Below, in pieces: positions 6,173 through 57,644 of a DNA stretch of 64,000 bases (the first letter of the stretch is position 1; each line of letters begins with the position of its first letter). The DNA lies in NCBI RefSeq assembly GCF_029946165.1, contig NZ_JAQSDZ010000011.1, positions 1 through 64,000 of the forward strand. Reading direction: 5' to 3'. This stretch comes from Methylotenera sp. (GTDB taxonomy: Bacteria > Pseudomonadota > Gammaproteobacteria > Burkholderiales > Methylophilaceae). The notes under the pieces are model-generated. The model made no database searches, had not been told where the DNA came from, and was given only the letters and a program-made list of their open reading frames with translations. A program made the translations under genes and the position numbers.

Positions 6173-6736
6173 ATGACTGATTCGACAGAATTCAGCATCA
6201 CAAAATATACGCAGTCACCGTTACGCCTGGAATTAAAGAAACATTTCAGCGTGACACCGCAAGTGCTATTCGACACGATCTCTGACCATCACGCAGTAGC
6301 CAACTAGGTGCCGCTCATGAAGGCTGTGTCCATGGAACACCACAATAATAGCGGCGGGGAATGCGGGGTCGGTTCTGTTCGGCATTGCGCTTTGCACGGG
6401 ATGGGTGGTTTGGACGAAACCATTGTTTGGTGGAACCCGCCCCATGGCTATGCCTTCAAAGTAGATGTCAAATCGAAAATAATGATGCCCACTAAAGATC
6501 ACTTTTCCGTAATGCTGATTGAACCACATGTAAACGGCGGAAGCACATTGACATGGCGGCATTACTTCAACTGGCGCAGCTTTTTCATGCGTCATGTCAC
6601 AGCAGTTATGCTCCCTATGATGATGAGAAAAGCCATCGACAACATCCGCAAGGAACTGGGCGAAAAGTATATGAATAAATGTCATACTGGTGCTGGCTGC
6701 AACGCAATGACTCATCAAAATACCTGCTGTAAGTAA
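6173..6736 (+). pseudogene. SRPBCC-family protein interrupted by an in-frame TAG
   Basis: From ATG at 6173 one continuous 188-codon frame encodes a START/SRPBCC ligand-binding protein, except for TAG at 6305-6307 (codon 45). The context SDHHAVAN-stop-VPLMKAV matches the family's conserved SDH...W.p...V stretch, so the stop probably replaces a Trp TGG by one base. The rest is intact: GGECGVGSVRHCALHGMGG, DETIVWWNPPHGYAF, then a Met- and Cys-rich tail (HTGAGCNAMTHQNTCCK). It follows an SD-like AGGGAG. A GTG directly after the stop could restart translation. It could also be a sequence error. Confidence 0.75.
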
Positions 6737-6755
6737 TTCGTCCTTCAAACGACTA
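6728..6755 (+). promoter_or_regulatory. ECF-type promoter motif ahead of the DMT transporter
   Basis: TGTAAG (6728-6733), 16 bp, CGACTA (6750-6755), followed by ATTCC. It matches the window-wide bipartite motif. The -35 half overlaps the end of the SRPBCC gene. The -10 half lies only about 10 bp before the first ATG of the transporter, which implies a very short or absent leader. Confidence 0.55.
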
Positions 6756-6765
6756 ATTCCTATAT

Positions 6766-7632
6766 ATGATGACGATGCACAATTTACGAATCGGTCTGTT
6801 CACTTCACTTGCCATGATGGCTTTTGCAGGCAACTCCCTGCTTTGCCGATGGGCACTAAAAGAAACAGGGATAAATGCTGCCAGTTTTACTTTAATTCGT
6901 ATTATTTCTGGTGCACTTATGCTATTGATAATACTCAGGCTACGTAAAGACAATCATTTGGCGAGCCGTGCAGCTGCTGGCAGTTGGCCTTCTGCATTAG
7001 CTTTGTTTACTTATATGGCAGCATTTTCCTACGCTTATGTGAGTCTGCCAACTGGTACTGGCGCGCTGTTGCTTTTTGGATCCGTACAACTCACCATGGT
7101 TCTTTCTGGTTTGTGGCAAGGCGAGCGTTTACACATGCGACAAAATATAGGACTAATCATTGCAACAGTTGGCTTGGTCTGGCTACTGTTTCCTAGCATT
7201 GCAGCACCGCACCTTGTTGAATCATTGCTCATGCTGACCGCTGGTGTAGCTTGGGCCATTTACTCACTGCGCGGCAAGGGGGCATCAGATCCTGTCAGCA
7301 TTACTGCGGGTAATTTCATGCTTGCTACTATGTTTTCAGTAGTGCTTAGCTTTATCTTTACTTCAAACGCAAAAGTAGATACAACAGGGTTCGCGCTCGC
7401 AGTGCTATCTGGGGCAGTCACTTCTGGAGTAGGCTATGCAATATGGTATTCAGCCTTGCAAGGCTTAAAAACCACAACTGCGGCAATTGTTCAGCTAAGC
7501 GTTCCAGTCATTGCCGCTATTGGTGGCGTGATGCTTTTGAACGAGATAGTCACGCCAAGGCTGGTGATAGCTTCAGTTGCCACGCTAGGCGGCATTGCGC
7601 TGGTGCTTATTGAACGACGTAAGACAATCTGA
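6766..7632 (+). CDS. EamA/DMT-superfamily transporter
   Basis: The 288-residue protein has about ten hydrophobic helices in the duplicated EamA pattern: MMAFAGNSLLCRWALKE near the start, and in the second half GKGASDPVSITAGNFMLAT and SGAVTSGVGYAIWYSALQGL. Such proteins export small metabolites across the inner membrane; the substrate is unknown. Several ATGs lie within the first four codons. The closeness of the predicted -10 element suggests a leaderless message or a start at ATG 6775. It converges on merR. Confidence 0.85.
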   Translation: MMTMHNLRIGLFTSLAMMAFAGNSLLCRWALKETGINAASFTLIRIISGALMLLIILRLRKDNHLASRAAAGSWPSALALFTYMAAFSYAYVSLPTGTGALLLFGSVQLTMVLSGLWQGERLHMRQNIGLIIATVGLVWLLFPSIAAPHLVESLLMLTAGVAWAIYSLRGKGASDPVSITAGNFMLATMFSVVLSFIFTSNAKVDTTGFALAVLSGAVTSGVGYAIWYSALQGLKTTTAAIVQLSVPVIAAIGGVMLLNEIVTPRLVIASVATLGGIALVLIERRKTI

Positions 7633-7647
7633 AAACCTGGAAGGCGT

Positions 7648-8067
7648 TCAATTGCTCTGCAACGCATTGATTAATGGACACGCAACCTTGCCATTGGTTG
7701 CGTGGCAGGCGCACACAAGCTCAGCCAGCGCGGTCTCCATGCGCATCAAATCGGCCAGCTTCTCACGCACATCCTTAAGCTTATGCTCAGCCAAATGGCT
7801 GGCTTCTTCGCAGTGCGTGCCGTCCTCCAGCCGCAGTAAATCGGCGATCTCATCCAGACTAAAACCTAGGCGTTGCGCTGACTTCACAAACAGCACTCTT
7901 GCCACGTCTGACCCGTCATAACGGCGAATACCACCGTAAGGCTTTTCTGGCTCCAGCAACAAGCCCTTGCCCTGATAAAAACGGATGGTTTCCACGTTGA
8001 CTCCAGCCGCCTTGGCAAAGGTGCCAATGGTCAGATTTTCCAGATTGCTTTTCAAATTATTTTCCAT
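7648..8067 (-). CDS. merR: Mercury-responsive regulator MerR
   Basis: The 139-residue protein has an N-terminal MerR winged helix ([20 protein letters not shown], then [20 protein letters not shown]), a dimerising helix and the mercury-binding cysteines of the Hg(II) class (one in GTHCEEASH and two in the [14 protein letters not shown] loop). It represses merTPA without Hg(II) and activates it with Hg(II) by untwisting the long-spacer promoter. It is divergent from merT across the operator at 8073-8103. Confidence 0.95.
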
Positions 8068-8072
8068 ATGGC

Positions 8073-8103
8073 TTGACTCCGTATATAACTACGGAGATAA
8101 GCT
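8073..8103 (+). promoter_or_regulatory. mer operator/promoter
   Basis: The -35 element TTGACT (8073-8078) and -10 element TAAGCT (8098-8103) are 19 bp apart, the over-long spacer typical of MerR-controlled promoters. Within the spacer is the dyad CTCCGTA (8077-8083) / TACGGAG (8090-8096), as in Tn501-type operators. Confidence 0.95.
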
Positions 8104-8138
8104 TACGCTATTGATTATGGATTTGAAAGGAGAAACAC

Positions 8139-10316: not shown

Positions 10317-11663
10317 TTAACTCTTGGACTTTTTCGGATAATACTGATCAGCTAATTGCTGTGGAGATGTGCCAAAAAAATAAGCCAACCGTAACTGCCA
10401 CATCAATAAAATGGTGCGGATGATGCCGTTTTGTTCCCAACGGCGGCTAGACGTGATTACTGGTAACACAATACACAGCGGTCTGCCGAAGGTGTTTTTC
10501 AAGGCGCGGCTTAGTGCAATATCTTCCATCAAGGGAATGTCGGCGAATCCCTCAACAGAAAAAAATGCCTCCCGGCGAACAAATATAGCCTGATCGCCAG
10601 TAGCAATGCCTGTAAGACGTGAACGCAGATTCATCATTATTTCAACTACGCGTAACAATGCCTGGCGACCAGATAATCGCACATTGAAACGCCCCCATGA
10701 TTTTTTGCTGCGTGCCAAGCCACCACTGATAAGATACGTCGCCACATCGGGTAATTGCGTGTCAGCGTGCAGAAACAATAGAACATCTCCACTTGCCAAC
10801 CGTGCGCCGGCATTCATCTGCCGGCTACGGCCACGTTCAGAGAGAATAATATGATCTGCCAGCGGTTTGGCTAATACAGCAGTATCATCATCGCTTCCCC
10901 CATCTACCACTATAATCTCATGCCCCGCAGCGCGTAGTGGCTGAAGCATGGCCAGACTGGCCTCAATATGCCCTGCTTCGTTTAAAGTTGGAATAATAAT
11001 AGACAAACGTGTGGCGGAAGTCTCTGCCATGATTTCTGGAGACGCTAATAGCGCGGCGCCATGACGGCTGCGCACAATCCATTTAACCAACAAGAACAGC
11101 AGCAGCAAGCTACCTGCAACATAAAGTAAAACGACTTTGGAGTTTTCCAGCACACCAATAATAGACATGACCTTTTGTGCGAACATGGTACCAATACCAA
11201 CACCCAAAGCAGCCCAGAGCAAAGCACCAATGCCATCATAAAGCACAAACTGACGGTAGGTTACGCCCGACATGCCCGCCATAGGTGCGGCAAAAGTTCT
11301 GTATCCCGGGATAAACCTTGCATAGATGAGTGATTTTGGGCCAAAGCGTGTCAGATGATGCTCGGTTTTTGCCAGACACGCAGCAGAGCCAAAACTCATT
11401 TTGCAATAAAACTGGATGATGTTTCTGGAACCTTTACGCCCGGCAAAATACCAGGCGCTATCACTGATGAGAGCACCAACTGCAGCAACCATAGCTGCTG
11501 GTACAAACGCAAATTGATCATTAGCCACCAAGCTGCCCGTTAACAGGAGTATCAATTCGCCAGGTACAGGAAAACCTGCATTATCCAGCATGACCCCAAC
11601 AAAAATAGCAAGATAGCCATACTGTATGAATAGATTAAAAATCTGGTTTGCAATCGACTCCAA
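10317..11663 (-). CDS. DedA-family membrane domain fused to TIGR04283-type glycosyltransferase
   Basis: The 448-residue fusion has an N-terminal DedA/VTT domain (about 1-200; DNAGFPVPGELILLLTGSLV, FAGRKGSRNIIQFYCK and ARFIPGYRTFAAPMAGMSGV) and a C-terminal family 2 glycosyltransferase (about 215-445; LSIIIPTLNEAGHIEASLA, EIIVVDGGSDDDTAVLA, HADTQLP, GDQAIFVRR). The GT part resembles TIGR04283, a family often found with arsenosugar genes; its usual partner TIGR04282 is encoded 42 kb away at 52533-53162. It lies 41 bp downstream of the DUF3179 gene and may be its operon partner. The substrate is not known. Confidence 0.8.
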   Translation of the reverse strand: MESIANQIFNLFIQYGYLAIFVGVMLDNAGFPVPGELILLLTGSLVANDQFAFVPAAMVAAVGALISDSAWYFAGRKGSRNIIQFYCKMSFGSAACLAKTEHHLTRFGPKSLIYARFIPGYRTFAAPMAGMSGVTYRQFVLYDGIGALLWAALGVGIGTMFAQKVMSIIGVLENSKVVLLYVAGSLLLLFLLVKWIVRSRHGAALLASPEIMAETSATRLSIIIPTLNEAGHIEASLAMLQPLRAAGHEIIVVDGGSDDDTAVLAKPLADHIILSERGRSRQMNAGARLASGDVLLFLHADTQLPDVATYLISGGLARSKKSWGRFNVRLSGRQALLRVVEIMMNLRSRLTGIATGDQAIFVRREAFFSVEGFADIPLMEDIALSRALKNTFGRPLCIVLPVITSSRRWEQNGIIRTILLMWQLRLAYFFGTSPQQLADQYYPKKSKS

Positions 11664-11704: not shown

Positions 11705-12730
11705 TTATTTTGACCGATAAATGGCGGTATCGGGGTGAAAACCAAACCAGGCAAACCAGAAAACCGTAGTTGATGATAGTGGCTTACCTGATGTGTCAAA
11801 TACAGTGCCGGTTCGATGCTCAGCGTTATAACGGATTACAATGGATTTTCCTGCAACACTATCTCTTATCTCGTTATCTTTATTAGTCACTTGCTTGGCA
11901 AGTTCCGCAAAAGGATATGCCTTGAATTTTCCGTCAATTTGCAATCCAATCACTAACTCTTTAGGATGAAAACCCTGCGAACGAAACTTTACCGGGAACA
12001 TGATATGTTCACTGGTTAAATAGTCATCGTAAGGGTTGGTTTTATAATCACGCCGGAAGCCAGTATCTTGCGATAACACCAATGTATTAGGATAGCGCTG
12101 CTTCCAGTCTGCCCACGTCGTATAATCTAGCGGCACTTGCGTTAGACGCTGTCCTTTCAATTTGCCACTGATTGCAGTCCGCATGAGTTGCGACCAGAGT
12201 GAATTGGTCTGACGATCATAAAGCAGAACGTCACTGTTATAGAGTAGCCCAGAAACGCCAAAAAGCAGATTCATATTGTTCTTATCAGTCAAAAACGCCA
12301 TGCCGCTGCCGCACAACGGGCAAAAAGTCACTACCAAAGGCTCGTCACCAAAACGATCATTCACAATTTCATGAAAATTAAGAATGGCTATCGGATAAGC
12401 TTTGACAACGCCATTGCGGGATATACCTAACACGCGATCAGTCGGTTTAATATAATCAGCTTTTGATACAGATAGAAACTTTGGGCGATCTATGGACGGA
12501 ATGCCATCGCGCGGCGGACCGCCTGAAAGTATTTCATCTTCAGGCACCAGACTGCCAGCCAAATCAAAATCATTTTTTATCGGTGCGGCACTTGCAAGTC
12601 CGATGAGTATGACTAAAAGTATTCCTATACGGAGTAAGCTATTGATTACTTCACGCAAGTAATGCTGCGCTCTCCACAACCAATTTCTAGTGGCGGCAGT
12701 ATCTGCTTTAGATGTAAGTTTAGCCTTCAT
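11705..12730 (-). CDS. DUF3179-domain protein, membrane-anchored or exported
   Basis: The 341-residue protein has an N-terminal hydrophobic segment (LLRIGILLVILIGLASAAP) and a DUF3179 domain (about 85-330) with GISRNGVVKAYPIAILNFHE, TFCPLCGSGMAF, SGLLYNSDVLLYDRQTNSLW and GFRRDY. The fold is conserved but its function is unknown. The predicted -10 element (12736-12741) nearly touches the ATG used here. The message may therefore be leaderless, or translation may start at an internal TTG (codon 18 or 25, the latter after GGAGAG). It is divergent from glk. Confidence 0.75.
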   Translation of the reverse strand: MKAKLTSKADTAATRNWLWRAQHYLREVINSLLRIGILLVILIGLASAAPIKNDFDLAGSLVPEDEILSGGPPRDGIPSIDRPKFLSVSKADYIKPTDRVLGISRNGVVKAYPIAILNFHEIVNDRFGDEPLVVTFCPLCGSGMAFLTDKNNMNLLFGVSGLLYNSDVLLYDRQTNSLWSQLMRTAISGKLKGQRLTQVPLDYTTWADWKQRYPNTLVLSQDTGFRRDYKTNPYDDYLTSEHIMFPVKFRSQGFHPKELVIGLQIDGKFKAYPFAELAKQVTNKDNEIRDSVAGKSIVIRYNAEHRTGTVFDTSGKPLSSTTVFWFAWFGFHPDTAIYRSK

Positions 12731-12735
12731 TTTTG

Positions 12736-12764
12736 TTAGTCGATTATTTAGCTAATTTATTACA
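12736..12764 (-). promoter_or_regulatory. ECF-type promoter motif ahead of the DUF3179 gene
   Basis: On the minus strand: TGTAAT half (ATTACA on plus, about 12759-12764), 16 bp, CGACTAA (12736-12742). It forms a divergent pair with the glk motif about 17 bp away. Confidence 0.65.
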
Positions 12765-12780: not shown

Positions 12781-12809
12781 TGTAATAAAAATAACGTTTG
12801 CTCGACTAA
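12781..12809 (+). promoter_or_regulatory. ECF-type promoter motif ahead of glk
   Basis: TGTAAT (12781-12786), 16 bp, CGACTAA (12803-12809), 42 bp ahead of the glk start. It is the divergent partner of the DUF3179 motif, so one regulator would switch both units. Confidence 0.7.
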
Positions 12810-12850: not shown

Positions 12851-13831
12851 GTGAATGAATATATGCTTGCCGGTGACGTTGGTGGCACCAAAACCAATAT
12901 CGCATTTTATACAGTGACAGGTGATTTTTCACCCATTGCAGAACACACCTATTTAAATAAGGAATTCTCAAGCTTGGAGCAAATCATCCGCCAGTTTTAT
13001 GAAGATACAGGATTCACGGCAAACACGGCATGCTTTGGCATAGCAGGTGCGATACACGATGGACGCTGCGACATGCCTAATTTAGGTTGGCATATTGATA
13101 GCAATGCGCTGGCCACATCTCTTGGTTTTAGTGAAGTGCATCTGCTCAATGACCTGGAGGCTACGGCCTACGGCATTGCCACACTTGCACCTAATCAGTT
13201 GGCAACCATCAATGAGGGAACGCCAGTCAGAAATGGGAACATGGCTTTAATCGCGGCAGGTACTGGCTTGGGTGAAGCAATATTGCTCCACACCAATAAC
13301 GATTATCATGTTTCGGCCTCAGAAGGCGGCCATGCTGATTTTGCGCCGCACAATGAAGAGGAAATTACCTTGCTGCGCCACCTTACCGCACGTTACGGCC
13401 ATGTAAGCTGGGAGCGTGTTGTATCTGGTCCCGGGCTAAAAAATATTTATGATTTTCTTAAAACAAGCCAACGCGCGGCAGAGCCTGCGTGGCTTGCTGA
13501 GTTGTTGGCGCAGGAAGGTGATGCAAGCGCGATCATCGCTCATAGCGCGCTTGAAAATGAAGCCGAAATCAGCACACGAGCACTTGATATTTTCATGTCA
13601 GCGTATGGCGCTGAAGCTGGTAATCTTGCATTAAAATCTTTATCTACTGGAGGCTTATACATTGGTGGAGGTATCGCACCAAAAATTTTGCATAAATTTT
13701 ATGAAGAAGCCTTTGTTACTTCTTTTTTAAACAAAGGCCGTTTTTCCACACTACTAGCTGAAATGCCACTTAAGGTTATACTAGAACCCAAAACTGCCTT
13801 GCGTGGCGCAGTGGCGTTTTTGAGAAAATAA
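12851..13831 (+). CDS. glk: Glucokinase
   Basis: The 326-residue protein phosphorylates glucose at C6 with ATP. It shows the N-terminal phosphate loop LAGDVGGTKTNIAFY, the sugar-binding LLNDLEATAYGI and the ASEGGHADFAPHNEEE region of bacterial Glk (ROK-like fold). The start is GTG, with GGGGAG 9 bp upstream. It leads a unit with HD-GYP, DoxX-like and sterol desaturase-like genes and carries the ECF-type motif upstream. Confidence 0.92.
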   Translation: MNEYMLAGDVGGTKTNIAFYTVTGDFSPIAEHTYLNKEFSSLEQIIRQFYEDTGFTANTACFGIAGAIHDGRCDMPNLGWHIDSNALATSLGFSEVHLLNDLEATAYGIATLAPNQLATINEGTPVRNGNMALIAAGTGLGEAILLHTNNDYHVSASEGGHADFAPHNEEEITLLRHLTARYGHVSWERVVSGPGLKNIYDFLKTSQRAAEPAWLAELLAQEGDASAIIAHSALENEAEISTRALDIFMSAYGAEAGNLALKSLSTGGLYIGGGIAPKILHKFYEEAFVTSFLNKGRFSTLLAEMPLKVILEPKTALRGAVAFLRK

Positions 13832-13860
13832 ATTGACTTAATTACTCAAGAAAGAAAGTC

Positions 13861-14709: not shown

Positions 14710-14730
14710 ATCGCCATTAAAGGATAAGCC

Positions 14731-15171
14731 ATGAACATCTTAAACAAAGATTCAACGCGTATTGCGCTTGCATTGCTATTACTTCGCCTTGGCGTATTTG
14801 TTGTAATGGTGATGTGGACGTTAGATAAATTCATACGGCCCGAGCATGCTGCAGCTGTTTTTGAACATTTCTATGGATTGGCAGGTTTTGGCATCACGGT
14901 AGTCTATGCACTGGCTATCGCTGAATCCATACTGCTGATTGGGTTTCTATTGGGTGTCGCGCCACGGCTAACCTATGGTGCCGTACTGGTGTTGCACGGA
15001 ATTTCAACCTTATCTGCCTACCAGCAATATCTGCACCCGTTCAACAGCAATAACCTGTTGTTTTTTGCCGCTTGGCCCATGCTGGCGGCATGTTTTACCT
15101 TATACACACTACGCGACCTGGATATTTGGCGATTTTATTTATATAGCAAACTTGCTAAACCTACTGTGTAA
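14731..15171 (+). CDS. DoxX-like small membrane protein
   Basis: The 146-residue protein has four hydrophobic helices in the DoxX-like arrangement (LRLGVFVVMVMWTLDKFIRP at the first helix, later QQYLHPFNSNNLLFFAAW). The biochemical role is unknown. SD AAAGGA lies 9 bp upstream, and it is 21 bp after the HD-GYP gene. Confidence 0.65.
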   Translation: MNILNKDSTRIALALLLLRLGVFVVMVMWTLDKFIRPEHAAAVFEHFYGLAGFGITVVYALAIAESILLIGFLLGVAPRLTYGAVLVLHGISTLSAYQQYLHPFNSNNLLFFAAWPMLAACFTLYTLRDLDIWRFYLYSKLAKPTV

Positions 15172-15196
15172 ATCACGCAAATAGAAACTGTACAAC

Positions 15197-17194: not shown

Positions 17195-17238
17195 GGTGTT
17201 CTCCAAAATAAAACTTACAAAATTAAAAACAGTAGTGC

Positions 17239-29207: not shown

Positions 29208-29235
29208 TAGTCGTAGCATCACTGGTTTTATTACG
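29208..29235 (-). promoter_or_regulatory. ECF-type promoter motif ahead of the DUF2934/debranching operon
   Basis: On the minus strand: CGTAAT (29230-29235), 16 bp, CGACTA (29208-29213). It faces the DUF2934 gene, 77 bp away, and lies back to back with the motif of the next small gene. Confidence 0.55.
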
Positions 29236-29266: not shown

Positions 29267-29294
29267 CGTAATCATTTTGAGTTGAAATCGACTA
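29267..29294 (+). promoter_or_regulatory. ECF-type promoter motif ahead of the small exported protein
   Basis: CGTAAT (29267-29272), 16 bp, CGACTA (29289-29294), 75 bp ahead of the gene start at 29369. Confidence 0.55.
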
Positions 29295-29770: not shown

Positions 29771-29798
29771 TGTAATAAAGTCGTTGAATTGACGACTA
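29771..29798 (+). promoter_or_regulatory. ECF-type promoter motif ahead of the thioredoxin-ovothiol operon
   Basis: TGTAAT (29771-29776), 16 bp, CGACTA (29793-29798). The -10 half is followed about 18 bp later by an SD (AAAAGGA) and the thioredoxin ATG, an ideal layout. Confidence 0.72.
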
Positions 29799-35082: not shown

Positions 35083-35146
35083 AAGACAATTGCGAGTGGC
35101 AAAGCCAGGTGCGATTGATTAATAATACTAAATAAAAGGAATTTTC

Positions 35147-35257: not shown

Positions 35258-35260
35258 CAA

Positions 35261-44635: not shown

Positions 44636-44662
44636 GATATTTCTCTCCATGAATAAAAGTGC

Positions 44663-45036: not shown

Positions 45037-45064
45037 TAGTCGTAGGCGCTTTCAATTTATTACA
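45037..45064 (-). promoter_or_regulatory. ECF-type promoter motif ahead of the NPCAAK operon
   Basis: On the minus strand: TGTAAT (45059-45064), 16 bp, CGACTA (45037-45042), facing the repeat-protein operon 93 bp away. Confidence 0.68.
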
Positions 45065-45212: not shown

Positions 45213-45467
45213 TCAACCTTTCTCAACGATTGACTTCATTGCTTCAGCTATCCTAGTCTTGGCATCATCTGGGAGTAAGGCTAAAGAAGCATCCTGTTTT
45301 TGAATAAAAAATGGCGCAATTTTATGAATAATTGATAGCTGCCTAGAAAATATTGCACAACCCGGGCAAGTAATGATATGTACCTTTAGCATCATACGTT
45401 TAAACAAAGGTAGCTCTTCATCTAACGCCTGAGATATCAACTCGCTCGATTGTTTGCAATTTAACAT
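45213..45467 (-). CDS. zf-HC2 small anti-sigma-like protein
   Basis: From ATG 45467 (AGGAGTGG ahead) the 84-residue protein reads MLNCKQSSELISQALDEELP, then KVHIITCPGCAIFSRQL. The Cys plus HxxxCPGC zinc pattern of ZAS/zf-HC2 anti-sigma factors is present. It is soluble, with no transmembrane helix. It has its own ECF-type motif upstream, is a paralogue of the protein at 46030-46254 and has a decayed copy at 57330-57495. Confidence 0.75.
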   Translation of the reverse strand: MLNCKQSSELISQALDEELPLFKRMMLKVHIITCPGCAIFSRQLSIIHKIAPFFIQKQDASLALLPDDAKTRIAEAMKSIVEKG

Positions 45468-45522
45468 TTGGCCACTCCTGAAGCTCATATTGCGCAAAAA
45501 TTTGGCAACTTATATAAAGTTT

Positions 45523-45550
45523 TAGTCGGGAATAAGGCAAATTTATTACA
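45523..45550 (-). promoter_or_regulatory. ECF-type promoter motif ahead of the zf-HC2 gene
   Basis: On the minus strand: TGTAAT (45545-45550), 16 bp, CGACTA (45523-45528). It is arranged back to back with the glutaredoxin motif. Confidence 0.68.
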
Positions 45551-45592: not shown

Positions 45593-45621
45593 TGTAAGAA
45601 AACCTATAGCATTGCCGACAA
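45593..45621 (+). promoter_or_regulatory. ECF-type promoter motif ahead of glutaredoxin
   Basis: TGTAAG (45593-45598), 17 bp, CGACAA (45616-45621). It differs from the consensus by one base in each half and faces the glutaredoxin gene 78 bp away. Confidence 0.5.
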
Positions 45622-49786: not shown

Positions 49787-50564
49787 CTAAATCGGCCACC
49801 TCTTTCGAACGTGTAAAATCAATGAACTGTTTCACGAGTCCCATAGGTACATATTTGGTTACTAGATTAAGTGGGCGCGACAATGGGAAACTGCCATTAC
49901 GCACATTTTCGACTGAAGCCGCTACGCCCTCCATAGGCAACAATTTAATCGGCGTGCCATTGCCAGACTCAAATTCAGCAGTGCCGATTGAAACATAGCC
50001 GATTGCACCTGGATTACCGGCCACGGTTTTAATACCTTGCTGGTTATCGCCAATCACTACTTGCGCCTTGATGTCACTATTTTTTAATTTGTAATAATGC
50101 GTAAAAAGCTCAAGCGTAGAACGCCCTTCGGCTTTATTTACTACGGTAATGCGACCATCCTTGCCGCCCACATCACGCCAGTTGGTGATCTTGCCGGTAT
50201 AAATATCAATCACCTGCTGATCGGTAAGTGTTTTCACCGGGTTATCCTTGTGCAGGATAACGCCAATGCCATCCAAGGCAATGGTAAAACTTTTTAGGTC
50301 CTTTTCTTCATCCTTGAGCGCGCGCGAAGCCATGCCGATGTCGGCCAGCCCACTACGGGCGTCGCTCACCCCGCGCGAAGAACCGCCAGACTGCACATCC
50401 ACGCGTACACCAGGGTTGAGTTTTTCAAAGCGCTTGCCTAGTTCGACAGCTAATGGTGCAATGGTGCTGGAGCCAGTCAGCACCAGTTTCTGATCGGCGG
50501 CGTATGTGAGTGAAGTTATTGCCAACATTAAAACTGAGGCAATCAATTGATTGATTTTGAACAT
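49752..50564 (-). CDS. pstS: Phosphate-binding protein PstS
   Basis: The 270-residue protein has a signal peptide (LIASVLMLAITSLTYAAD) and PstS features: LTGSSTIAPLAVELGKRFEK, QSGGSSRGVSDARSGLADIG and GTRSTLELF-like EGRSTLELFTHYY. It captures phosphate in the periplasm and could also meet arsenate. It follows arsM by 27 bp, so phosphate uptake and arsenic methylation appear to share one transcript. Confidence 0.93.
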   Translation of the reverse strand: MFKINQLIASVLMLAITSLTYAADQKLVLTGSSTIAPLAVELGKRFEKLNPGVRVDVQSGGSSRGVSDARSGLADIGMASRALKDEEKDLKSFTIALDGIGVILHKDNPVKTLTDQQVIDIYTGKITNWRDVGGKDGRITVVNKAEGRSTLELFTHYYKLKNSDIKAQVVIGDNQQGIKTVAGNPGAIGYVSIGTAEFESGNGTPIKLLPMEGVAASVENVRNGSFPLSRPLNLVTKYVPMGLVKQFIDFTRSKEVADLVEAQYFVPLPH

Positions 50565-50591: not shown

Positions 50592-51635
50592 TCAGCAGCA
50601 AGAACCTTTACTGCCATCCACAGTGGTACTGCTATCAAATGGAATAGCCGTACCGCAACCTTCAAAAATACCGAAGTGCTGACTAAAATCACCAATGAAA
50701 TCGAAGTGATTTTTAAAGCGTGTTTCATGCAGCATTTTCCAGGTGTTGCCGCAAACAGGGAATACACGGCCTTTTTCAATGTGATGATGTTTATCCAGCA
50801 CGAATAAATGCGGCTGTTCAGGCGCGGTGCCACGATAAACCACGGCTTGACCATAATCCTCACAGGCAGGTTCTAAACCATCCACCTTGAACAGGCGATA
50901 TGTCGCGGAGTAAAAACGCAAATTGCCAGCATGCGCGGCAATTTCAGGGTCAGTAATTTCCAGTGGACGATCTTCCACCAGCCGCGGATCGGCAAAACCA
51001 CTGTGTTTGGCAAGATTCAAAAAATCATTCCAGTACAGCGCACCGCCTAGGCATTCGCCGTAAAAAACCGGGTCATGACTCACCGCACCAGGTACGCGAG
51101 CATTAACGTAAACATCGGAAAAATAAAATTCACCTCCCGGTTTGAGCAAGCGATGCACCTCGCGCAGCACCGCATCCTTATCTGGCGACAAGTTAATGAC
51201 ACAATTGGAAACAATCACATCAAAGCTATTACTTTCTAGATCAAGCTCATCAAGATGCTCGATATAACCCTTCTTGAAAGTGACATTGCTAAACCCAAAG
51301 GCTTCGGCATGGTAGTCAAGATATTTGTTGGCGACATCTAGTTGCTCGTCAGTCATATCCACGCCGATAACCTCACCCGTTACCCCCACAAGTTGTGCCA
51401 GCGCATAAACATCACGACCCGAGCCGCTACCTAGATCCAGCACGCGGCACCCTTCCAGTAGCGGCGGGCACACTAGGCCGCAACCGTAATAGCGCGAAGT
51501 AACTTCAGGATGAATGCGCGCCAGTAGGGGTTTCAACCAATTGGGTACTTGGCTGATGTCACAACAAGCGGTCGTTTTTAGATCGTCAGAACTTTGCAAC
51601 TGACGGCCATAGTAGTCTTTAACAGAATCAAGCAT
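50592..51635 (-). CDS. arsM: Arsenite methyltransferase ArsM
   Basis: The 347-residue SAM methyltransferase has a SAM site (RVLDLGSGSGRDVYALAQLV), DVIVSNCVINLSPDK and the cysteines expected for As(III) binding: vicinal C24-C25, YYGCGLVC (C52, C56), one in SNCVIN and one in FYGECLGGALYW. It ends with SKGSCC. It methylates As(III) stepwise. The ECF-type motif lies upstream, and pstSCAB follows. In arsenosugar clusters ArsM supplies dimethylarsenite to ArsS. Confidence 0.9.
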   Translation of the reverse strand: MLDSVKDYYGRQLQSSDDLKTTACCDISQVPNWLKPLLARIHPEVTSRYYGCGLVCPPLLEGCRVLDLGSGSGRDVYALAQLVGVTGEVIGVDMTDEQLDVANKYLDYHAEAFGFSNVTFKKGYIEHLDELDLESNSFDVIVSNCVINLSPDKDAVLREVHRLLKPGGEFYFSDVYVNARVPGAVSHDPVFYGECLGGALYWNDFLNLAKHSGFADPRLVEDRPLEITDPEIAAHAGNLRFYSATYRLFKVDGLEPACEDYGQAVVYRGTAPEQPHLFVLDKHHHIEKGRVFPVCGNTWKMLHETRFKNHFDFIGDFSQHFGIFEGCGTAIPFDSSTTVDGSKGSCC

Positions 51636-51673: not shown

Positions 51674-51702
51674 TAGTCGGCATTGGATAGTAAATTATTA
51701 CA
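51674..51702 (-). promoter_or_regulatory. ECF-type promoter motif ahead of arsM-pstSCAB
   Basis: On the minus strand: TGTAAT (51697-51702), 17 bp, CGACTA (51674-51679), followed by AATA. It is 39 bp ahead of arsM. Confidence 0.72.
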
Positions 51703-51733: not shown

Positions 51734-52546
51734 TTACGAAAATTTACACTCCTGATCTTTCGTAACAAGATGTATATCAGCAAAACCGGCATGCGCCTTC
51801 TCACCAGTATTGTCAGTATCTGAAGCCACCGCGACGAGTGCGATTTGAACATTGCCAAAACTTGCATAGTTAGCGCCGAAGGTGGCTTTAAAGTCTGCCA
51901 TTAAGTCTCTGCGTTCACTCACCCACGTGTTGGCTTTACTTGATCCAGTTTGCTGCACAATCATCTGCGTACGGTTGGTATAGGCATTGGGGCGTTGCGT
52001 GCCAATTTCATAGCGGTTATCCCACACATAGTTAATGGCGGCATCGGGTACAACATCACCATATATTTTTCGAGCGATGGCTAGTTTAGTACGGATTGTA
52101 AAACTCAGCATTTCAGGCGGCAGCTTAAATGCCACATACACACGGGCGGTGTAATCGTCGCCTTTTTTAGTTGCCATATCCGCCTGAACCAATGGCGAGT
52201 CTACGCGCCAACGCCAGCAAAGTATCGGCGCCTTAGCGAGATTAATCTCTACCGGCCTTGCAAGTAAGGTCATGCTTTTGTCGGCGATTGCCTCAATGGC
52301 AGGCACGCCATCCCATAATCGCATTTGATAGTGTGTAGCAGGCACGCGCTTATCAAGCTGCATTAACTGCCATGGGATAGAGATTTCTGCGTCGTGCGTA
52401 TTTTTGGTAGTAGGCGCATTGAACTTCCCGAGCCAGAGAATCTTATTTTCGACACTGTTTTCTACAGCGCCCCCTGCTTCGGTTTGAGTGGTGACCGATA
52501 TTAACCCTGATAAAACTACAACAAATGAGGTTTTAATGCTCTGCAT
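51734..52546 (-). CDS. DUF3047 exported protein
   Basis: The 270-residue protein has a signal peptide (SFVVVLSGLISVTTQTEAGG) and the DUF3047 body: PILCWRWRVDSPLVQADMAT, KKGDDYTARVYVAF, INYVWDNRYEIGTQRPNAYT and ALVAVASDTDNTGEKAHAGF. Its molecular role is unknown, but it recurs beside arsenosugar-type genes. Its start overlaps the end of the TIGR04282 gene by 14 bp; it is the last gene of the arsS operon. Confidence 0.85.
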   Translation of the reverse strand: MQSIKTSFVVVLSGLISVTTQTEAGGAVENSVENKILWLGKFNAPTTKNTHDAEISIPWQLMQLDKRVPATHYQMRLWDGVPAIEAIADKSMTLLARPVEINLAKAPILCWRWRVDSPLVQADMATKKGDDYTARVYVAFKLPPEMLSFTIRTKLAIARKIYGDVVPDAAINYVWDNRYEIGTQRPNAYTNRTQMIVQQTGSSKANTWVSERRDLMADFKATFGANYASFGNVQIALVAVASDTDNTGEKAHAGFADIHLVTKDQECKFS

Positions 52547-53162
52547 ACAACCACTCTAAAGGTACATGATCTAAATCATCTGGCGTATCTACATCATGTA
52601 GCAAGTTTCCAATATGAATAGACCAGTCCAGCTGTTTTATTTTCAAAATGGTCTGGTAAGCAACGTCGCTAGTGCTCCAGGCAATATTATTAAAAACACT
52701 CAAATCAAATTGTCGCAACCCCAGCAAAGCATAACCGCCATCCGCTGTTGGATAGATAACGGTATCGTTTGAATCCAGATTTTGAATAGCCTCGATTAAT
52801 AACATCGCACTCATTTCAATGCAATCTGTGCCTATCAATAAAACCGCATCTCCTTGTGCCAATGCTCGTGCGGTTGCGCGCGCCATTCTTTCACCCAAAT
52901 CACCTTCACCTTGATGGCTGACTTCAACTACATCTGGAATTTCTACGCCCTGCCATGCGACAGAGGTCAAATCAGGCGTCACACATAATTCAACCTTTGC
53001 CACACCAGCCCCGATAGCACTGCTCAATGTATTCTTAAGCATTAAATGGGCAATATTGGCGGCACCTTCAGCGCCCAAGGCAGGAATAAGCCGCGTCTTG
53101 GCAAAGTTGGCCTGAGGGGCTTTGGCAAAAATGATAATTCTTATGTTCTTTTTATCTGTCAT
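52533..53162 (-). CDS. TIGR04282-type arsenosugar-associated glycosyltransferase
   Basis: The 209-residue protein is of the DUF2064/TIGR04282 kind: IIFAKAPQANFAKTRLIPAL, GERMARATARALAQGDAVLL, GTDCIEMS and YPTADGGYALLGLRQFD. It resembles nucleotidyl-/glycosyl-transferase folds and is the usual neighbour of ArsS and TIGR04283. Its TIGR04283 partner is fused to DedA at 10317-11663. It lies 5 bp after the DUF547 gene. Confidence 0.85.
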   Translation of the reverse strand: MTDKKNIRIIIFAKAPQANFAKTRLIPALGAEGAANIAHLMLKNTLSSAIGAGVAKVELCVTPDLTSVAWQGVEIPDVVEVSHQGEGDLGERMARATARALAQGDAVLLIGTDCIEMSAMLLIEAIQNLDSNDTVIYPTADGGYALLGLRQFDLSVFNNIAWSTSDVAYQTILKIKQLDWSIHIGNLLHDVDTPDDLDHVPLEWLYAEH

Positions 53163-53167: not shown

Positions 53168-53957
53168 TTATTGTTTGCGGTTAAGCTGCCAGTTGTAATC
53201 CAGAAAGTCTATGTCAATTTCTCCTGCCTGCAAACGTCGAACATCATTTTCATTGAGCCCCAGGGCTTGGCTATAGTTACCCAAAAACTGTGGCAATGAC
53301 TTAAATCCAGCCCATCCACGCTCAAAATCTTTTTTGTACCATTTGAAAATACTGGATAGCTTTAACTTGCCATCTTCAAATCTATTGCGCGTTCTATCTT
53401 TAAGAAACATTTGTGCTGCATCGTCCAATTGTTTGGTCAGGTTTTCAGCAGTATAGGCTTCTGCTCGCAGTGCAGGGCAACCGATACTCGCGCAGTTCAC
53501 GGCAAAATGAATACGTGGCTCCTGGTAACGGTTAGAGCGAATCAAACCTTGCTCAATATCATCCAAAGACCTTGTTTCGCCTAACAATGGGATAAATGAC
53601 TTCTTCCATGGCGACTTTAACAGTGAGCCTAAATCCTTGATGGATTTAACAGGGTATCCTGACAACACCAGTTCAACAGTCCATGCGTTATAAGCATTAA
53701 TTAAAAAAGCCAACTGTTCATTTTTATTCCAGCTGTCAAAAGTGCTTTGTTTAACTGCGGATGTAGCTTCCAGAAATGCTTTTAACTGGGCATGGTCAGC
53801 AAGCAAACCTTCGTAATCCACTTGCGTAGTTTGCCCTTGGTTCACTTGTATGACATGTTTTTTTAAGCAGACTGTCCCATTGGCCATAAGCAAAGCTCGC
53901 AGCCTGAACATTTAGACTTAACATCATTAATCCAACTATAATAAAAAAACGCTTCAT
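53168..53957 (-). pseudogene. DUF547 exported protein, frameshifted at an A7 run
   Basis: ATG 53957 (GAGG ahead) opens with MKRFFIIVGLMMLSLNVQAA, a signal peptide, then SFAYGQWDSLLKK. At the run of seven A (plus T7, 53858-53864) the frame shifts: one A fewer would continue as KHVIQVNQGQTTQVDYEGLL, the normal DUF547 start. From there the DUF547 body is intact (FLINAYNAWTVELVLSGYPV, FAVNCASIGCPALRAEAYTA, LDYNWQL). It may be a pseudogene, a slippage-controlled gene or a homopolymer error. It follows the VTT-oxidoreductase gene by 14 bp. Confidence 0.85.
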
Positions 53958-53971: not shown

Positions 53972-56125
53972 TTATGTACCTCGTTTCCAAGTGTGATATT
54001 TCTCAACAAATTCCAGTAATTTTTTGGGAGAATGCGCGCGCTTCCACTCACCGGCCACGTATTTATTGGCTTCGGCCAAAGTGGGATAGGTGTGGATAGT
54101 GCCTAGTATCTTGTTCAAGCCTAAACCATGCTTCATGGCCAATACATATTCAGCCAATAAATCCCCAGCGTGCTCGCCAACAATAGTGACCCCGAGGATT
54201 TTATCTTTGCCAGGCACAGTTAACACTTTAATAAAGCCATGTGCCACACTGTCGGTAATGGCGCGATCAAGTTCTTCAAGGTCAAAACGCGTCACTTCAT
54301 AGGCAATGCCCTTTTGTTTGGCATCCTGCTCGTTTAAGCCAACACGCGCCACTTCCGGGTCAATAAATGTTGCCCATGGAATCACTGAATAATCCGCTTT
54401 AAAGCGTTTAAGGCCACCAAACAGTGCATTAACTGCGGCATACCAAGCCTGATGTGCGGCAAAGTGAGTAAACTGATAAGGCCCTGCCACGTCGCCAGCG
54501 GCGTAGATATTGGGATACAAAGTTTCGAGGTACTCATTGATGGTGACGGTGCGATTAGTATCGACGCCTAATTCTTCCAGACCATAACCACTGAGCCTAG
54601 CCTCGCGCCCGGTGGCACATAAAAACTGGTCAAATTCAATGCGTTGTTCTATACCAGATTTTTCTACAACCACAAATTTGCTGTTACCGACCTTTTCGCA
54701 ACGCACGGTATTATGCTCAGTCAGCACGTTGATGCCATCCGCTTGTAGTGCCTGCAACGCAAACGCGGAAACTTCTTCATCCTCGCCAGACATAATGCGC
54801 TTGCCGCGTACAATCAATGTCACTTTTGACCCTAATCGCGCAAAACTTTGTGCTAATTCGCAACCAATCGGGCCGCCGCCTAGTACAATTAAGCGTGCTG
54901 GCGCTTCGTCCAATTGCGCAAACTTGTCCCACAACGTATCACTGGTGACATAACCCACTTCTTCCAGGCCTGTCAATTTTGGCACTTGCGGTTTACCGCC
55001 CGCTGCAATCACGATGCTGCGCGTGGTAATGCGGCGTGTGCCGCCAGTATTCAGCACAACTTCCACTGTCCATGGGTCAATAATCTTGGCGTAGCCCTGC
55101 ACAACTTCCACACCCAGCTTGGTATAACGCTCTACGCTGTCATGTGGCTCAACCGTAGCGATTAATGCATGTACTCTAGCCATCACTTTTTTGAAACTGA
55201 ATTTTGCTGGCGCCGCTTCCAAACCGTAATGATCAGCATTGGCCATTTGATGCGCAATCTTGGCACTTTTGATAATCGCCTTACTCGGCACACAGCCATA
55301 ATTCAGGCAATCGCCCCCCATCTTATGCGCCTCAACCAATACCACTTTGGCCTTCACTGCTGCGGCAATATAAGACGTGACCAAGCCAGCAGCGCCAGCG
55401 CCGATAACCACCAAATTCTGCTCAAACGACTTTGGTTTAGTCCAACGTGCGTAGACGCGACGTTTATGCAGGATGCCAATGACTTTTTTAGCGATTAAAG
55501 GAAAAACGCCGAGCAAGGCAAAGGAAAGTAAAACCGTTGGCGAGGCGATTCCAGATAAGCTAGTAATTTGCGCCAACTGCGTACCAGCGTTTACAAACAC
55601 CAATGTGCCTGCCAACATGCCAAGCTGGCTTACCCAATAATAGGTAGCAGTTCGGATTGTTGTGAGCCCCATTAGCAAGTTGATTAGAAAAAACGGAAAC
55701 ACGGGGACTAACCGTAACGTGAATAAATACAAAGCACCATCTTTAGCAACACCATCGTTAATGGATTTGAGTTTATCGCCGAAACGCTGTTGCACACTAT
55801 CGCGAAGTAAATAACGCGAAGTCAAAAAAGCCAGGGTCGCTCCTATGCTTGAAGCAAAAGAAACAATCAACGTTCCTTGCCACAAACCAAATAACGCACC
55901 TGCCAGTAACGTGAGCAGCACAGCCCCTGGCAGCGAGAGTGCGGTAGCAATAATGTATATCACAAAAAAACTGATGATTACCAGCCACGGCGACTGTCCT
56001 TGCAAGCTTGCTAATTGATTGCGATTTTCTTTAATGGAGTCTAGCGTTAAATAGTGATTTAGATCTAAGCCAAAGAAAAGTGAGATAGCAACTAAAATAA
56101 CACCAACGATAATAAGTTTTTTCAT
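53972..56125 (-). CDS. VTT (TVP38/TMEM64) membrane domain fused to a MerA-like FAD disulfide reductase
   Basis: The 717-residue fusion has an N-terminal VTT/SNARE-associated membrane domain (about 1-225; LVIISFFVIYIIATALSLPG, LVPVFPFFLINLLMGLT). A pyridine nucleotide-disulfide oxidoreductase follows (about 233-717; VVIGAGAAGLVTSYIAAAVK, GGDCLNYGCVPSK, VLGGGPIGCELAQSFARLGS, IYAAGDVAGP). The C-terminal TIHTYPTLAEAN matches MerA/DLD-like enzymes. The redox CxxxxC is intact, but no C-terminal vicinal Cys is seen, so it is not a true MerA. It follows arsS by 39 bp. It could reduce a thiol or arsenical near the membrane. Confidence 0.85.
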   Translation of the reverse strand: MKKLIIVGVILVAISLFFGLDLNHYLTLDSIKENRNQLASLQGQSPWLVIISFFVIYIIATALSLPGAVLLTLLAGALFGLWQGTLIVSFASSIGATLAFLTSRYLLRDSVQQRFGDKLKSINDGVAKDGALYLFTLRLVPVFPFFLINLLMGLTTIRTATYYWVSQLGMLAGTLVFVNAGTQLAQITSLSGIASPTVLLSFALLGVFPLIAKKVIGILHKRRVYARWTKPKSFEQNLVVIGAGAAGLVTSYIAAAVKAKVVLVEAHKMGGDCLNYGCVPSKAIIKSAKIAHQMANADHYGLEAAPAKFSFKKVMARVHALIATVEPHDSVERYTKLGVEVVQGYAKIIDPWTVEVVLNTGGTRRITTRSIVIAAGGKPQVPKLTGLEEVGYVTSDTLWDKFAQLDEAPARLIVLGGGPIGCELAQSFARLGSKVTLIVRGKRIMSGEDEEVSAFALQALQADGINVLTEHNTVRCEKVGNSKFVVVEKSGIEQRIEFDQFLCATGREARLSGYGLEELGVDTNRTVTINEYLETLYPNIYAAGDVAGPYQFTHFAAHQAWYAAVNALFGGLKRFKADYSVIPWATFIDPEVARVGLNEQDAKQKGIAYEVTRFDLEELDRAITDSVAHGFIKVLTVPGKDKILGVTIVGEHAGDLLAEYVLAMKHGLGLNKILGTIHTYPTLAEANKYVAGEWKRAHSPKKLLEFVEKYHTWKRGT

Positions 56126-56164
56126 AGTATTTTTTTCGATATGAGATGGATTTTTAAGCTGAAA

Positions 56165-57139
56165 TTACTCAACCAATGCGCCGCCACAGCTACTACCCTG
56201 CCCCGCAGTACATCCGTAACAGTGGTCTGCAATACGTATAAGCTTGCCTTGGCTGACGTATTGCTCAAAATCTTTTAAATGCGGGCGTGAGTTTTTAAGT
56301 GTGCCAGTTGTAGGTATGCTAATACCAAGCTGCTGGTTGAAATCGCAGTCATAAAGGTAACCTTGCCAGTCAACGCTTAACAGCGTGCGGCACATCACAC
56401 TATCCAGATTGCCAGCCGCATAGTTCGTCTTTAAGAGGTGCATATAATCTTTAAACTGCCCCCTGGAAACCAAAGTGCTGCCAAAGCGCTGAATCGGCAT
56501 ATTGGTGACGGTAAATAGCTGGTTAAACACAATACCAAAGTGTTCAAATAACTCCTCTTTATACTTGGCTTGCAGTGGCGCTTGTGCTGGCGGCAAGCTG
56601 GGGCCAAGCGGGTTGTAAACCAAATTTAATACGAGTCCGCTGCCTTCATGTCCATAGCCAAGACTATTCAACAACTGCAACCCAGCAATGCTTTTTTCAA
56701 ACACGCCATCACCACGCTGTTCGTCCACATTTTTAGCAGAGTAACAAGGTAATGACGCCACCACCTCCACCTTATGCTGAGCTAAAAACTCGGCAAGACC
56801 TTCCTGACCAGGCTCAAATAAAATGGTAAGGTTACAGCGGTCAATCACTTTCACACCCAGCGCAGTAGCATTGATCACTATATCGCGGAACATCGAATGC
56901 AACTCTGGCGCCCCACCCGTTAAATCAAGTGTACTGATATTATTATCGGCAAGAATTTGGAGAACTAATGAAATAGTCCCTTCATCCATCATTTCCTTGC
57001 GAGTTGGCCCCGCGTTCACGTGACAATGCAAGCATGTCTGATTACAGCGATAGCCTAGATTAACTTGTAACGTCTCTAGCCTGCTTCTATGCAATGCTGG
57101 AAAATCTGTTTTTTGAATCAACGGTAAAATGGCGTGCAT
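56165..57139 (-). CDS. arsS: Arsenosugar biosynthesis radical SAM protein ArsS
   Basis: The 324-residue protein has the radical SAM cluster CNQTCLHC in LGYRCNQTCLHCHVNAGPTR, DLTGGAPELHSMF and VVASLPCYSAKNVDEQRGDG. A C-terminal SPASM-like region with cysteines follows (YDCDFNQQLG, HCYGCTAGQGSSCGG). These are hallmarks of ArsS (TIGR04167), which joins the 5'-deoxyadenosyl group of SAM to dimethylarsenite. It leads a five-gene operon, with the ECF-type motif about 65 bp upstream. Confidence 0.92.
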   Translation of the reverse strand: MHAILPLIQKTDFPALHRSRLETLQVNLGYRCNQTCLHCHVNAGPTRKEMMDEGTISLVLQILADNNISTLDLTGGAPELHSMFRDIVINATALGVKVIDRCNLTILFEPGQEGLAEFLAQHKVEVVASLPCYSAKNVDEQRGDGVFEKSIAGLQLLNSLGYGHEGSGLVLNLVYNPLGPSLPPAQAPLQAKYKEELFEHFGIVFNQLFTVTNMPIQRFGSTLVSRGQFKDYMHLLKTNYAAGNLDSVMCRTLLSVDWQGYLYDCDFNQQLGISIPTTGTLKNSRPHLKDFEQYVSQGKLIRIADHCYGCTAGQGSSCGGALVE

Positions 57140-57204
57140 TAAAATTCCTAAAAATACATCAATCTAATGATCTTGGTGTCATGGTTTAGTTAACATTTGA
57201 TTGT

Positions 57205-57232
57205 TAGTCGATATACTTGCCAAATTATTACA
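57205..57232 (-). promoter_or_regulatory. ECF-type promoter motif ahead of arsS
   Basis: On the minus strand: TGTAAT (57227-57232), 16 bp, CGACTA (57205-57210), followed by ACAA. The -35 side, TTGTAATAATTT, is identical to that of arsM over 12 bp. Confidence 0.74.
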
Positions 57233-57329
57233 ATATTTTATATAAAAACTCCTCGCATATTTTCAACAACATTGTTCACCGGAACTTAATAACTTATCTA
57301 ACCAAAGTTTTAGGTGGGGGTTATATGAA

Positions 57330-57495
57330 AAACAGCTGACTCAACCATAAATGGCGTTGCTTTGTGAATAATTGCTTAACTAAAGATGGCACAATTGCGG
57401 TAAGTAGAATATGTGCTCCTAACACCACCCGTTTACATAATGCCAATTTGTTGTCGATAGCCTGAGATATCAATTCAATTGTTTATAATTTGACA
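57330..57495 (-). pseudogene. Decayed zf-HC2 anti-sigma copy
   Basis: On the minus strand MSNYKQ, a frameshift, then ELISQAIDNKLALCKRVVLG and AHILLTAIVPSLVKQLFTKQ align with the intact protein at 45213-45467 (MLNCKQSSELISQALDEELP, FKRMMLKVHIITCPGCAIFS). The zinc cysteines are gone. Upstream a damaged copy of that gene's promoter is also visible (ATAGTCTAGAATAAG around 57550). It is a duplicated and dead regulator gene. Confidence 0.75.
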
Positions 57496-57615
57496 TTACA
57501 GCTGTCCTTGAATTTATATCGCACTAGAGTTTGTGCGTCATATAAATTCATAGTCTAGAATAAGTCTAACTTTTTGCCACTTATCAATAAACAGTAACTA
57601 TCTCTCAAAATACTC

Positions 57616-57644
57616 TGTAATAAATATCCTAGTCACGACGACTA
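57616..57644 (+). promoter_or_regulatory. ECF-type promoter motif ahead of the MTA phosphorylase
   Basis: TGTAAT (57616-57621), 17 bp, CGACTA (57639-57644), followed by TAAC. It is 38 bp before the ATG, with the SD AAAGGAAAGAG between. Confidence 0.72.

Follow-up and report, generated by a model that had tools for sequence, protein, structure and literature searches.

A predicted extracytoplasmic function sigma factor regulon with an arsenosugar core in a 64-kb stretch of a Methylotenera genome

In a 64,000-nucleotide stretch of Methylotenera sp. (contig NZ_JAQSDZ010000011.1, positions 1 to 64,000; hereafter the window), a bipartite motif, TGTAAT and CGACTA, recurs in front of genes, and a gene for an extracytoplasmic function (ECF) sigma factor lies at 46238-46909. 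We consider it probable (roughly 0.8), judging from sequence comparison, that the 12 copies of this motif are promoters read by RNA polymerase with this sigma factor, whose release from a zinc-binding anti-sigma factor would turn on one island of arsenosugar, thiol-repair and Cys-rich-protein genes. The set was probably acquired horizontally as a single island, and its sigma factor is called the island sigma below.

Closest described systems

Neisseria sigma-E controls msrAB (PMC2893595, PMC3240639) and has the promoter consensus GTMAGBWTT-N12-13-CGTCTAAH (PMC2893595). As with sigma-E and MseR of Neisseria meningitidis, a zinc anti-sigma gene stands beside the sigma gene in the window, and its product has the same four metal-ligand positions, Cys4/His30/Cys34/Cys37 (PMC2893595). 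The two systems also share a -35 GTAA, a -10 CGNCTA, an equal overall distance and a thiol/oxidation theme (PMC2893595, PMC3240639). However, the -10 element is CGTCTA there and CGACTA here, and the letters GTAATAA/CGACTA miss the published consensus (PMC2893595). The published direct regulon there consists of the rpoE operon and msrA/msrB (PMC2893595), whereas here the msrBA pair is without a site and the core concerns arsenosugars. Because its geometry is the same as that of the published consensus, the window motif is a variant of the Neisseria sigma-E promoter kind. An earlier note on this DNA had held that CGACTA is no textbook ECF motif it could name; as a class, the motif comes near the consensus published for Neisseria sigma-E.

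Haemophilus influenzae RpoE2 (with HrsE) controls msrAB, a drug/metabolite transporter (DMT) gene and a DoxX-type cluster (PMC7907618). The likeness lies in the small peptide zinc anti-sigma, the DMT transporter with the DoxX cluster, and oxidative stress, while arsenosugar genes and a promoter consensus are not mentioned in the available part of its account (PMC7907618). In Cupriavidus metallidurans, rpoQ-rsqA lies beside gigPABT, likewise an ECF and anti-sigma pair beside a bufferin-type operon and linked to metal stress, but RsqA is predicted to be membrane-bound and, in the part of the account available, control of gig by RpoQ is not demonstrated (PMC10304878). A bufferin gene was not identified in the island, whereas genes that look DUF2282-like by eye stand behind the motif in relatives. 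The Caulobacter SigF promoter has -35 GTAACC and -10 CGAA. ECF genes occur in bufferin clusters with SigF/NrsF too (PMC3511200, PMC12452194), but the anti-sigma is NrsF there and a zf-HC2 protein here (PMC12452194). The E. coli-type sigma-E (with RseA) has -35 GGAACTT (PMC2893595) and a membrane anti-sigma, in contrast to TGTAATAA and a 74-aa soluble-looking anti-sigma here.

A search of titles and abstracts, with most subscription journals outside its coverage, found, among the matches listed, no sigma factor linked to arsenosugar genes and no regulator of them. A search of titles and abstracts for TGTAAT or CGACTA together with an ECF sigma factor gave no matching promoter among the matches listed.

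Twelve candidate promoters in the window

Eight exact copies of TGTAATN{14,19}CGACTA are present in the window, whereas 100 dinucleotide shuffles give an expectation of 0.03. A matrix built from other genomes with the window left out (see below) selects 12 sites at ≥11 bits (11.3 to 22.7 bits; Table 1), the same 12 that the earlier note had listed, with -35 TGTAATAA, -10 CGACTA and a spacing of 16-17 measured from TGTAAT. At this threshold, 20 first-order Markov shuffles gave a mean of 0.65 and a maximum of 3 sites, and at ≥19 bits none, versus 10 in the window. Opening the spacing to 11-22 added four matches of ≥11 bits at spacings outside 16-17. The coordinates given earlier stand for ten sites and were off by one for two, which lie at 12737-12764 and 12781-12808. 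It had also been stated that no half-site varies by more than one base, which is true of all 12. This rule alone further admits four N16 sites (1487, 10448, 11777 and 28127, with one change in each half), all of which scored <7 bits with the independent matrix, so that the earlier note was right to leave them out. The first T is replaced by C only in sites 29208 and 29267, which stand in front of the units for carbohydrate enzymes and the small protein. In 10/12 island sites (CGTAAT included), T is the fifth -35 base.

Each copy had been placed within about 95 bp of a gene start, and at all 12 sites a start codon indeed follows the -10 by 6-92 nt. Site 2 stands so close to the DUF3179 gene, with only 6 nt between its -10 and the ATG, that the message would be leaderless or the start is wrongly assigned. 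Six of the sites form divergent back-to-back pairs (12737/12781, 29208/29267 and 45523/45593), which also occur in relatives (loci L067, L071, L087 and L144), the -35 elements in such pairs being about 8-42 bp apart. This recurrent arrangement, which operators can show, would suit a reading of the motif as a classical transcription-factor binding site instead of a promoter. We hold that reading to be highly improbable, since the halves are asymmetric, the spacing is strictly 16-17, and the sites face genes at short distances from their starts; in addition, the -35/-10 pair resembles the published Neisseria sigma-E consensus and is associated with an ECF gene.

The source genome comprises 2,944,828 bases in 27 contigs, the window lying on contig C11. 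Eight of its nine exact N16-17 motifs lie inside the window (binomial P about 4e-13), and the following 40 kb of the contig holds a single site of ≥11 bits (14.3 bits). Outside the window, the sites that appear real are C19:2706, at an msrP-like gene, and perhaps C19:921, at a DoxX-like gene (12 bits). As promoters we rejected C26:98784 (19.5 bits), which faces no nearby start and is placed at the 3' end of an open reading frame (ORF) on the other strand, and C16:176668 and C26:85905, which both lie inside ORFs.

Table 1. Candidate promoter sites, sigma and anti-sigma genes, and arsenosugar genes of the window (window coordinates).
Feature	Position	Strand	Score	Genes faced or remarks
Site 1	6728..6755	+	21.7 bits	EamA/DMT transporter 6766-7632
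Site 2	12737..12764	-	17.8 bits	DUF3179 gene 11705-12730, then DedA-TIGR04283 glycosyltransferase 10317-11663
Site 3	12781..12808	+	21.3 bits	glk, HD-GYP, DoxX-like, fatty acid hydroxylase 12851-15994
Site 4	29208..29235	-	19.2 bits	69-aa ORF 28922-29131, then 26795-28843 and 24059-26794 (glycoside hydrolases as named in the earlier note)
Site 5	29267..29294	+	11.3 bits, marginal	71-aa exported protein 29369-29584
Site 6	29771..29798	+	21.5 bits	Thioredoxin-DsbD_TM-SpoIIE-OvoA plus following genes 29825-36430
Site 7	45037..45064	-	21.2 bits	NPCAAK protein 44663-44944, NPCAAK/SoxA-like cytochrome 43886-44650, DUF6969 43062-43805
Site 8	45523..45550	-	22.7 bits, highest	Second zf-HC2 45213-45497
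Site 9	45593..45621	+	19.8 bits	Glutaredoxin 45699-45956; site reads TGTAAG/CGACAA
Site 10	51674..51702	-	21.3 bits	ArsM-like gene 50592-51635, pstSCAB 47186-50564, then 276-bp gap and sigma/anti-sigma pair
Site 11	57205..57232	-	19.1 bits	ArsS 56165-57139, TVP38-FAD oxidoreductase 53972-56125, DUF547 53168-53911, TIGR04282 52533-53162, DUF3047 51734-52546
Site 12	57616..57644	+	21.9 bits	S-methyl-5'-thioadenosine phosphorylase (MTAP) 57683-58558
ECF sigma factor, 223 aa	46238..46909	-	NCBIfam NF009196 297.2 bits (cutoff 287); TIGR02943 244.3 bits (cutoff 162.2)	
Coupled zf-HC2 anti-sigma, 74 aa	46030..46254	-		17-bp overlap with sigma gene; Cys4, His30, Cys34, Cys37
Second zf-HC2 protein	45213..45497	-	NF052368 anti-sigma family 58 bits (cutoff 50)	Own site 8
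ArsS	56165..57139	-	TIGR04167 452 bits (cutoff 300)	
ArsM-like arsenite methyltransferase	50592..51635	-	Top model 175.9 bits, below NCBIfam cutoff 263	
TIGR04282 arsenosugar glycosyltransferase	52533..53162	-	196 bits (cutoff 134)	
TIGR04283 arsenosugar glycosyltransferase	10317..11663	-	270 bits (cutoff 182)	Fused to VTT/DedA domain

Between 43062 and 44944, two exported proteins rich in NPCAAK repeats, one of them with a SoxA/TsdA-like cytochrome domain, adjoin a DUF6969 gene; these proteins are possible metal or metalloid sinks. The matrix scan found no site of ≥7 bits upstream of the window's msrB-msrA pair (16730-18425), even though sigma factors of this family typically target Msr genes.

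Sigma factor, motif and targets in other genomes

The island sigma is over the cutoff for TIGR02943/PRK12544-type models, into which Neisseria sigma-E presumably falls as well. The coupled anti-sigma looks soluble by eye. The second zf-HC2 protein, behind the best-scoring site, has the same Cys-His-Cys-Cys spacing and is a possible feedback inhibitor.

Among 265 ECF-sigma relatives found, the loci of the best 80 (51-68% identity) were compared, with Burkholderiales, Gallionella/Sideroxydans-type bacteria and Microbulbifer frequent. At N16-17 they hold 73 GTAAN..CGNCTA sites in 44 loci, of which the 65 that read GTAA[GCT]..CGACTA (43 loci) made up the matrix. The base 5' of GTAA, on which no selection was made, is T in 63/65 sites, the fifth base is mostly followed by AA, and the motif of the relatives reads TGTAA[G/C/T]AA then CGACTA, nearly always at a spacing of 16-17. 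At ≥17 bits, 122 sites in the 80 loci have these spacings (16 in 36, 17 in 86) versus 7 over ten other spacings.

Orthologues in these loci were counted at ≥35% identity where the N-terminus and ≥120 bp upstream were present, with a site threshold of 14 bits. An upstream site was found for ArsS in 13/17 and for MTAP in 12/14 orthologues, and for ArsM in 5/14, thioredoxin in 3/8, glutaredoxin in 2/5, the NPCAAK cytochrome in 1/2, MsrA in 1/2, DUF547 in 1/6 and TIGR04282 in 1/11. The sigma gene itself has one in 16/80 loci, and AhpD-like, HD-GYP and TVP38 fusion genes have one in 4/22, 2/13 and 1/20. None was found upstream of the coupled anti-sigma (0/15) and DsbD-like (0/10) genes, both internal operon genes in the window, nor of MerA-like (0/8), MerR (0/7), DUF6969 (0/5), DUF3047 (0/5), EamA (0/4), AraC-like (0/2), two glycoside hydrolase (0/1 each), Pst (0/1-2 each) and some other genes met once or twice. 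Other recurrent first genes behind the motif, named by eye, encode DUF2282-like exported proteins, a 'VGGGHAHLSVL' oxidoreductase and a 151-aa 'LLARPHPFI' protein. As a control, ArsS loci from a sample of the whole class were ranked solely by how well ArsS scored; among the top 30, 0/30 ArsS genes have a site of ≥14 bits (Fisher 2e-8 against 13/17).

Comparison across genomes shows that the motif, the near-subfamily sigma factors and the target genes belong together at the level of sequence. The comparison of promoters in related genomes that the earlier note had proposed thus came out in its favor: the motif accompanies the near ECF relatives and the same targets, its assignment to an ECF sigma regulon gains from this association, which extends to the sigma gene itself, and orthologues of the thiol/metalloid members (ArsS, MTAP, ArsM, thioredoxin, glutaredoxin and NPCAAK protein) carry the site elsewhere. 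The 'stress' character given to the regulon would follow from its family by analogy.

Carbohydrate membership, which the earlier note had included, fares less well, and it may be that only a core is controlled (ArsS, MTAP, ArsM, thioredoxin, glutaredoxin, NPCAAK and zf-HC2), the carbohydrate and DMT sites being chance or decayed. The glycoside hydrolase and EamA orthologues without a site agree with this, as do the lack of any DUF3179 or glk orthologue in the 80 loci and the score of just 11.3 bits at site 29267, the weakest. We nevertheless find a core-only regulon less likely than not. Sites 1-3 score 17.8-21.7 bits, a DMT transporter is under RpoE2 control in H. influenzae (PMC7907618), and HD-GYP, the gene next after glk, has a site in two of its 13 orthologues. 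A congener (G031, locus L312, contig C11:335-362) moreover has a strict motif of 24.4 bits, 41 nt upstream of a glucokinase-like gene; in that genome, ArsS is not over the cutoff and the ECF relative is its own, at 42% identity.

Arsenosugar synthesis involves ArsM, ArsS and a nucleoside phosphorylase, and the NCBIfam names agree; MTAP of the window is over the TIGR01694 cutoff. The arsenosugar pathway would form the core of the predicted regulon, its genes and those for thiol handling being the best-supported targets. In the class sample (369 genomes plus the source, 370 in all), 44 genomes have a sigma factor over cutoff and 191 have an ArsS over cutoff; 32 of the 44 ECF-bearing genomes have ArsS (Fisher p 0.0035). 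Positions read by eye place the two within about 10 kb of each other in at least 11 of these 32 (the source and 10 others), and in nine more class genomes the ECF that adjoins ArsS scores lower. One 17-kb stretch of a Burkholderia glumae plasmid is annotated with ECF, zf-HC2, CcdA, thioredoxin, ArsS, TIGR04282/04283, MTAP and DUF547. The strict motif, present in 1-2 copies in 25/369 class genomes, is found in 8/43 genomes with the ECF versus 17/326 others (p 0.004).

Because distant ECF genes adjoin arsS without a site, the link between ArsS and the motif, as far as the sequences tell, holds for the near ECF subfamily, not for every ECF beside arsS. Distant members of the family with no motif of ≥14 bits upstream of the adjoining arsS are those of G112, G230, G121, G235 and G178 (loci L172, L174, L187, L190 and L195). 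The G112 control locus has a weaker TGAAAGG..CGACTA (11.5 bits), and in some control loci arsS closely follows another gene. At such distant loci, arsS is either under a different promoter or transcribed from a more remote start.

Resident paralogue, acquisition and proposed control

The source genome has a second ECF gene, at C18:105318-105848, whose product is 42% identical to the island sigma. Its cluster (C18, about 105279-108224; locus L258:7280-10225) holds ECF, zf-HC2 and exported Cys-containing protein genes, then DUF692-like and DUF2063-like genes named by eye, and by the same naming is bufferin-type. An msrP-like gene is present in 38/52 genus genomes (51 congeners and the source), and 26 of 30 genus loci compared have a site of ≥11.6 bits upstream of it (19/30 at ≥14 bits; four have none). 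Of these 26 sites, 24 begin with TGTAAGG, 13 end in exact CGACTA and 11 do both; that of the source genome, C19:2706, reads TGTAAGA..CGACTA (20 bits). At C19:361-2732 (locus L257), TGTAAG..CGACTA sites precede what by eye are msrPQ-like paired genes and a DoxX-like gene. The recurrence of sites at msrP-like genes points to a resident sigma-E-like regulon, and the resident paralogue probably reads TGTAAGG..CGACTA-like sites at msrP. Matches to TGTAAGGAACT..CGACCA inside the resident ECF gene (L258:7752-7778; loci L040-L065) were rejected as promoters, being coding sequence of region 4.2, and are taken as coincidence.

This paralogue, alone or jointly with the island sigma, might instead read the island promoters. 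The msrP sites would fit, as they are frequent in the genus, the source included, although the island sigma is absent from other species. We regard this as distinctly unlikely, since the fifth -35 base of most island sites is T instead of G and congeners with the paralogue but without the island have hardly any strict sites (one each in 6/51). The fifth base is also more uniform within loci than expected (0.70 vs 0.49 shuffled, reached in 0 of 2000; 35 loci with ≥2 sites, kinship not corrected), and the presumed recognition helix is INLLFVTLYRAR in the island sigma, VSNLNVMLHRAR in a form common among relatives and ATNAWVMLYRAR in the resident. Together, the homogeneity per locus and the altered island helix are suggestive, though only suggestive, of sigma-promoter pairs that drifted apart, with the island possibly insulated from the resident. 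Some TGTAAT loci carry the usual recognition helix, and no one-to-one link of any single sigma residue to the fifth -35 base was found.

The best match to the island sigma in other genus genomes is 44% identical, and ArsS is over cutoff in 1/52. An integrase lies at 1329-2570, and the genes from 58894-63803 of the window on to C11:64253 form an operon whose products resemble TniQ, an AAA ATPase, a large transposase and TnsA, with family matches weak or absent: the ATPase matches AAA_22, TniQ has E 0.009, below cutoff, and the TnsB-like protein is without a Pfam match. No end-like inverted 13-mer pair was found as Tn7-like ends. The integrase and the transposition-like operon suggest mobility.

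Several observations weigh against the reading of the 12 sites as promoters of the island sigma. Matrix and orthologue counts both come from the 80 loci, so these counts are not fully independent; the window test is. Many orthologues near the sigma gene are without a site (sigma 64/80, AhpD-like 18/22, HD-GYP 11/13, TVP38 fusion 19/20 and EamA 4/4), some being internal operon genes. In the 30 control loci, the TVP38 fusion (2/6) and DUF3179 (1/2) do have a site, and a TIGR02943 ECF over cutoff occurs in 8 of the 30 genomes, next to arsS in five of them, yet the arsS genes there lack a site of ≥14 bits. The B. glumae stretch has only one 15.7-bit and one 11.0-bit site, none at ArsS, and no site of ≥9 bits lies in an unannotated 19-kb stretch with ArsS on a Cupriavidus plasmid. 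The resident paralogue could read some island sites. The matrix finds no site directly upstream of the window sigma gene; autoregulation then needs read-through over the 276-bp gap between the pst and sigma genes, which holds three sigma-70-like matches versus a shuffle mean of 1.5. A terminator-like site was not found in this gap, and autoregulation by arsM-pst-sigma read-through is a possible arrangement.

The genome-wide scan proposed earlier belongs here as well. It confirmed strong clustering in the window, but loose patterns are no commoner than in the reversed control: GTAAB-N16-17-CGACTA occurs 21 times, 11 of them inside the window, versus 25, and a two-mismatch pattern 34 versus 47 times. 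Across the whole genomes of 20 relatives, the totals of the unrestricted pattern likewise show no enrichment over the reversed control; sites cluster on the contig of the sigma gene in several (G429 C16, G422 C28, G440 C46) and are scattered in others. The distinctive feature is the concentration of sites in the window, not genome-wide enrichment.

If the island sigma does read these promoters, control could run as follows. The zinc-binding anti-sigma (46030-46254) would hold the sigma factor until thiol oxidation or a thiophilic metal or metalloid frees it. Free sigma would then drive the methylation of arsenic and its assembly into arsenosugars (ArsM, ArsS, MTAP and TIGR04282/04283), phosphate/arsenate-type transport (Pst), and thiol repair (thioredoxin-DsbD, glutaredoxin and ovothiol synthase) together with the Cys-rich exported proteins. 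The arsM-pst-sigma operon might provide positive feedback, while the second zf-HC2 protein, the owner of the strongest site, might provide negative feedback.

A wider proposal, which we put forward tentatively and at less than even odds, is that many Beta- and Gammaproteobacteria have a dedicated, horizontally mobile ECF sigma factor as master regulator of their arsenosugar biosynthesis, and that the sigma factor imported here shifted its -35 preference from TGTAAG to TGTAAT along with its recognition helix, insulating the foreign regulon from the TGTAAGG-reading resident. The ECF neighbors of arsS outside the near subfamily, where the site is lacking, make it less likely. Arsenosugar genes are widespread, as the ArsS count in the class sample illustrates, and the signature of sigma factor and motif offers a testable regulator for them. 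It also predicts new pathway members, namely, the NPCAAK proteins, DUF3179, DUF3047 and DUF547, as well as a SelD-like oxidoreductase in relatives, and the genome would present a natural case of two paralogous ECF sigma factors with similar promoters in one cell.

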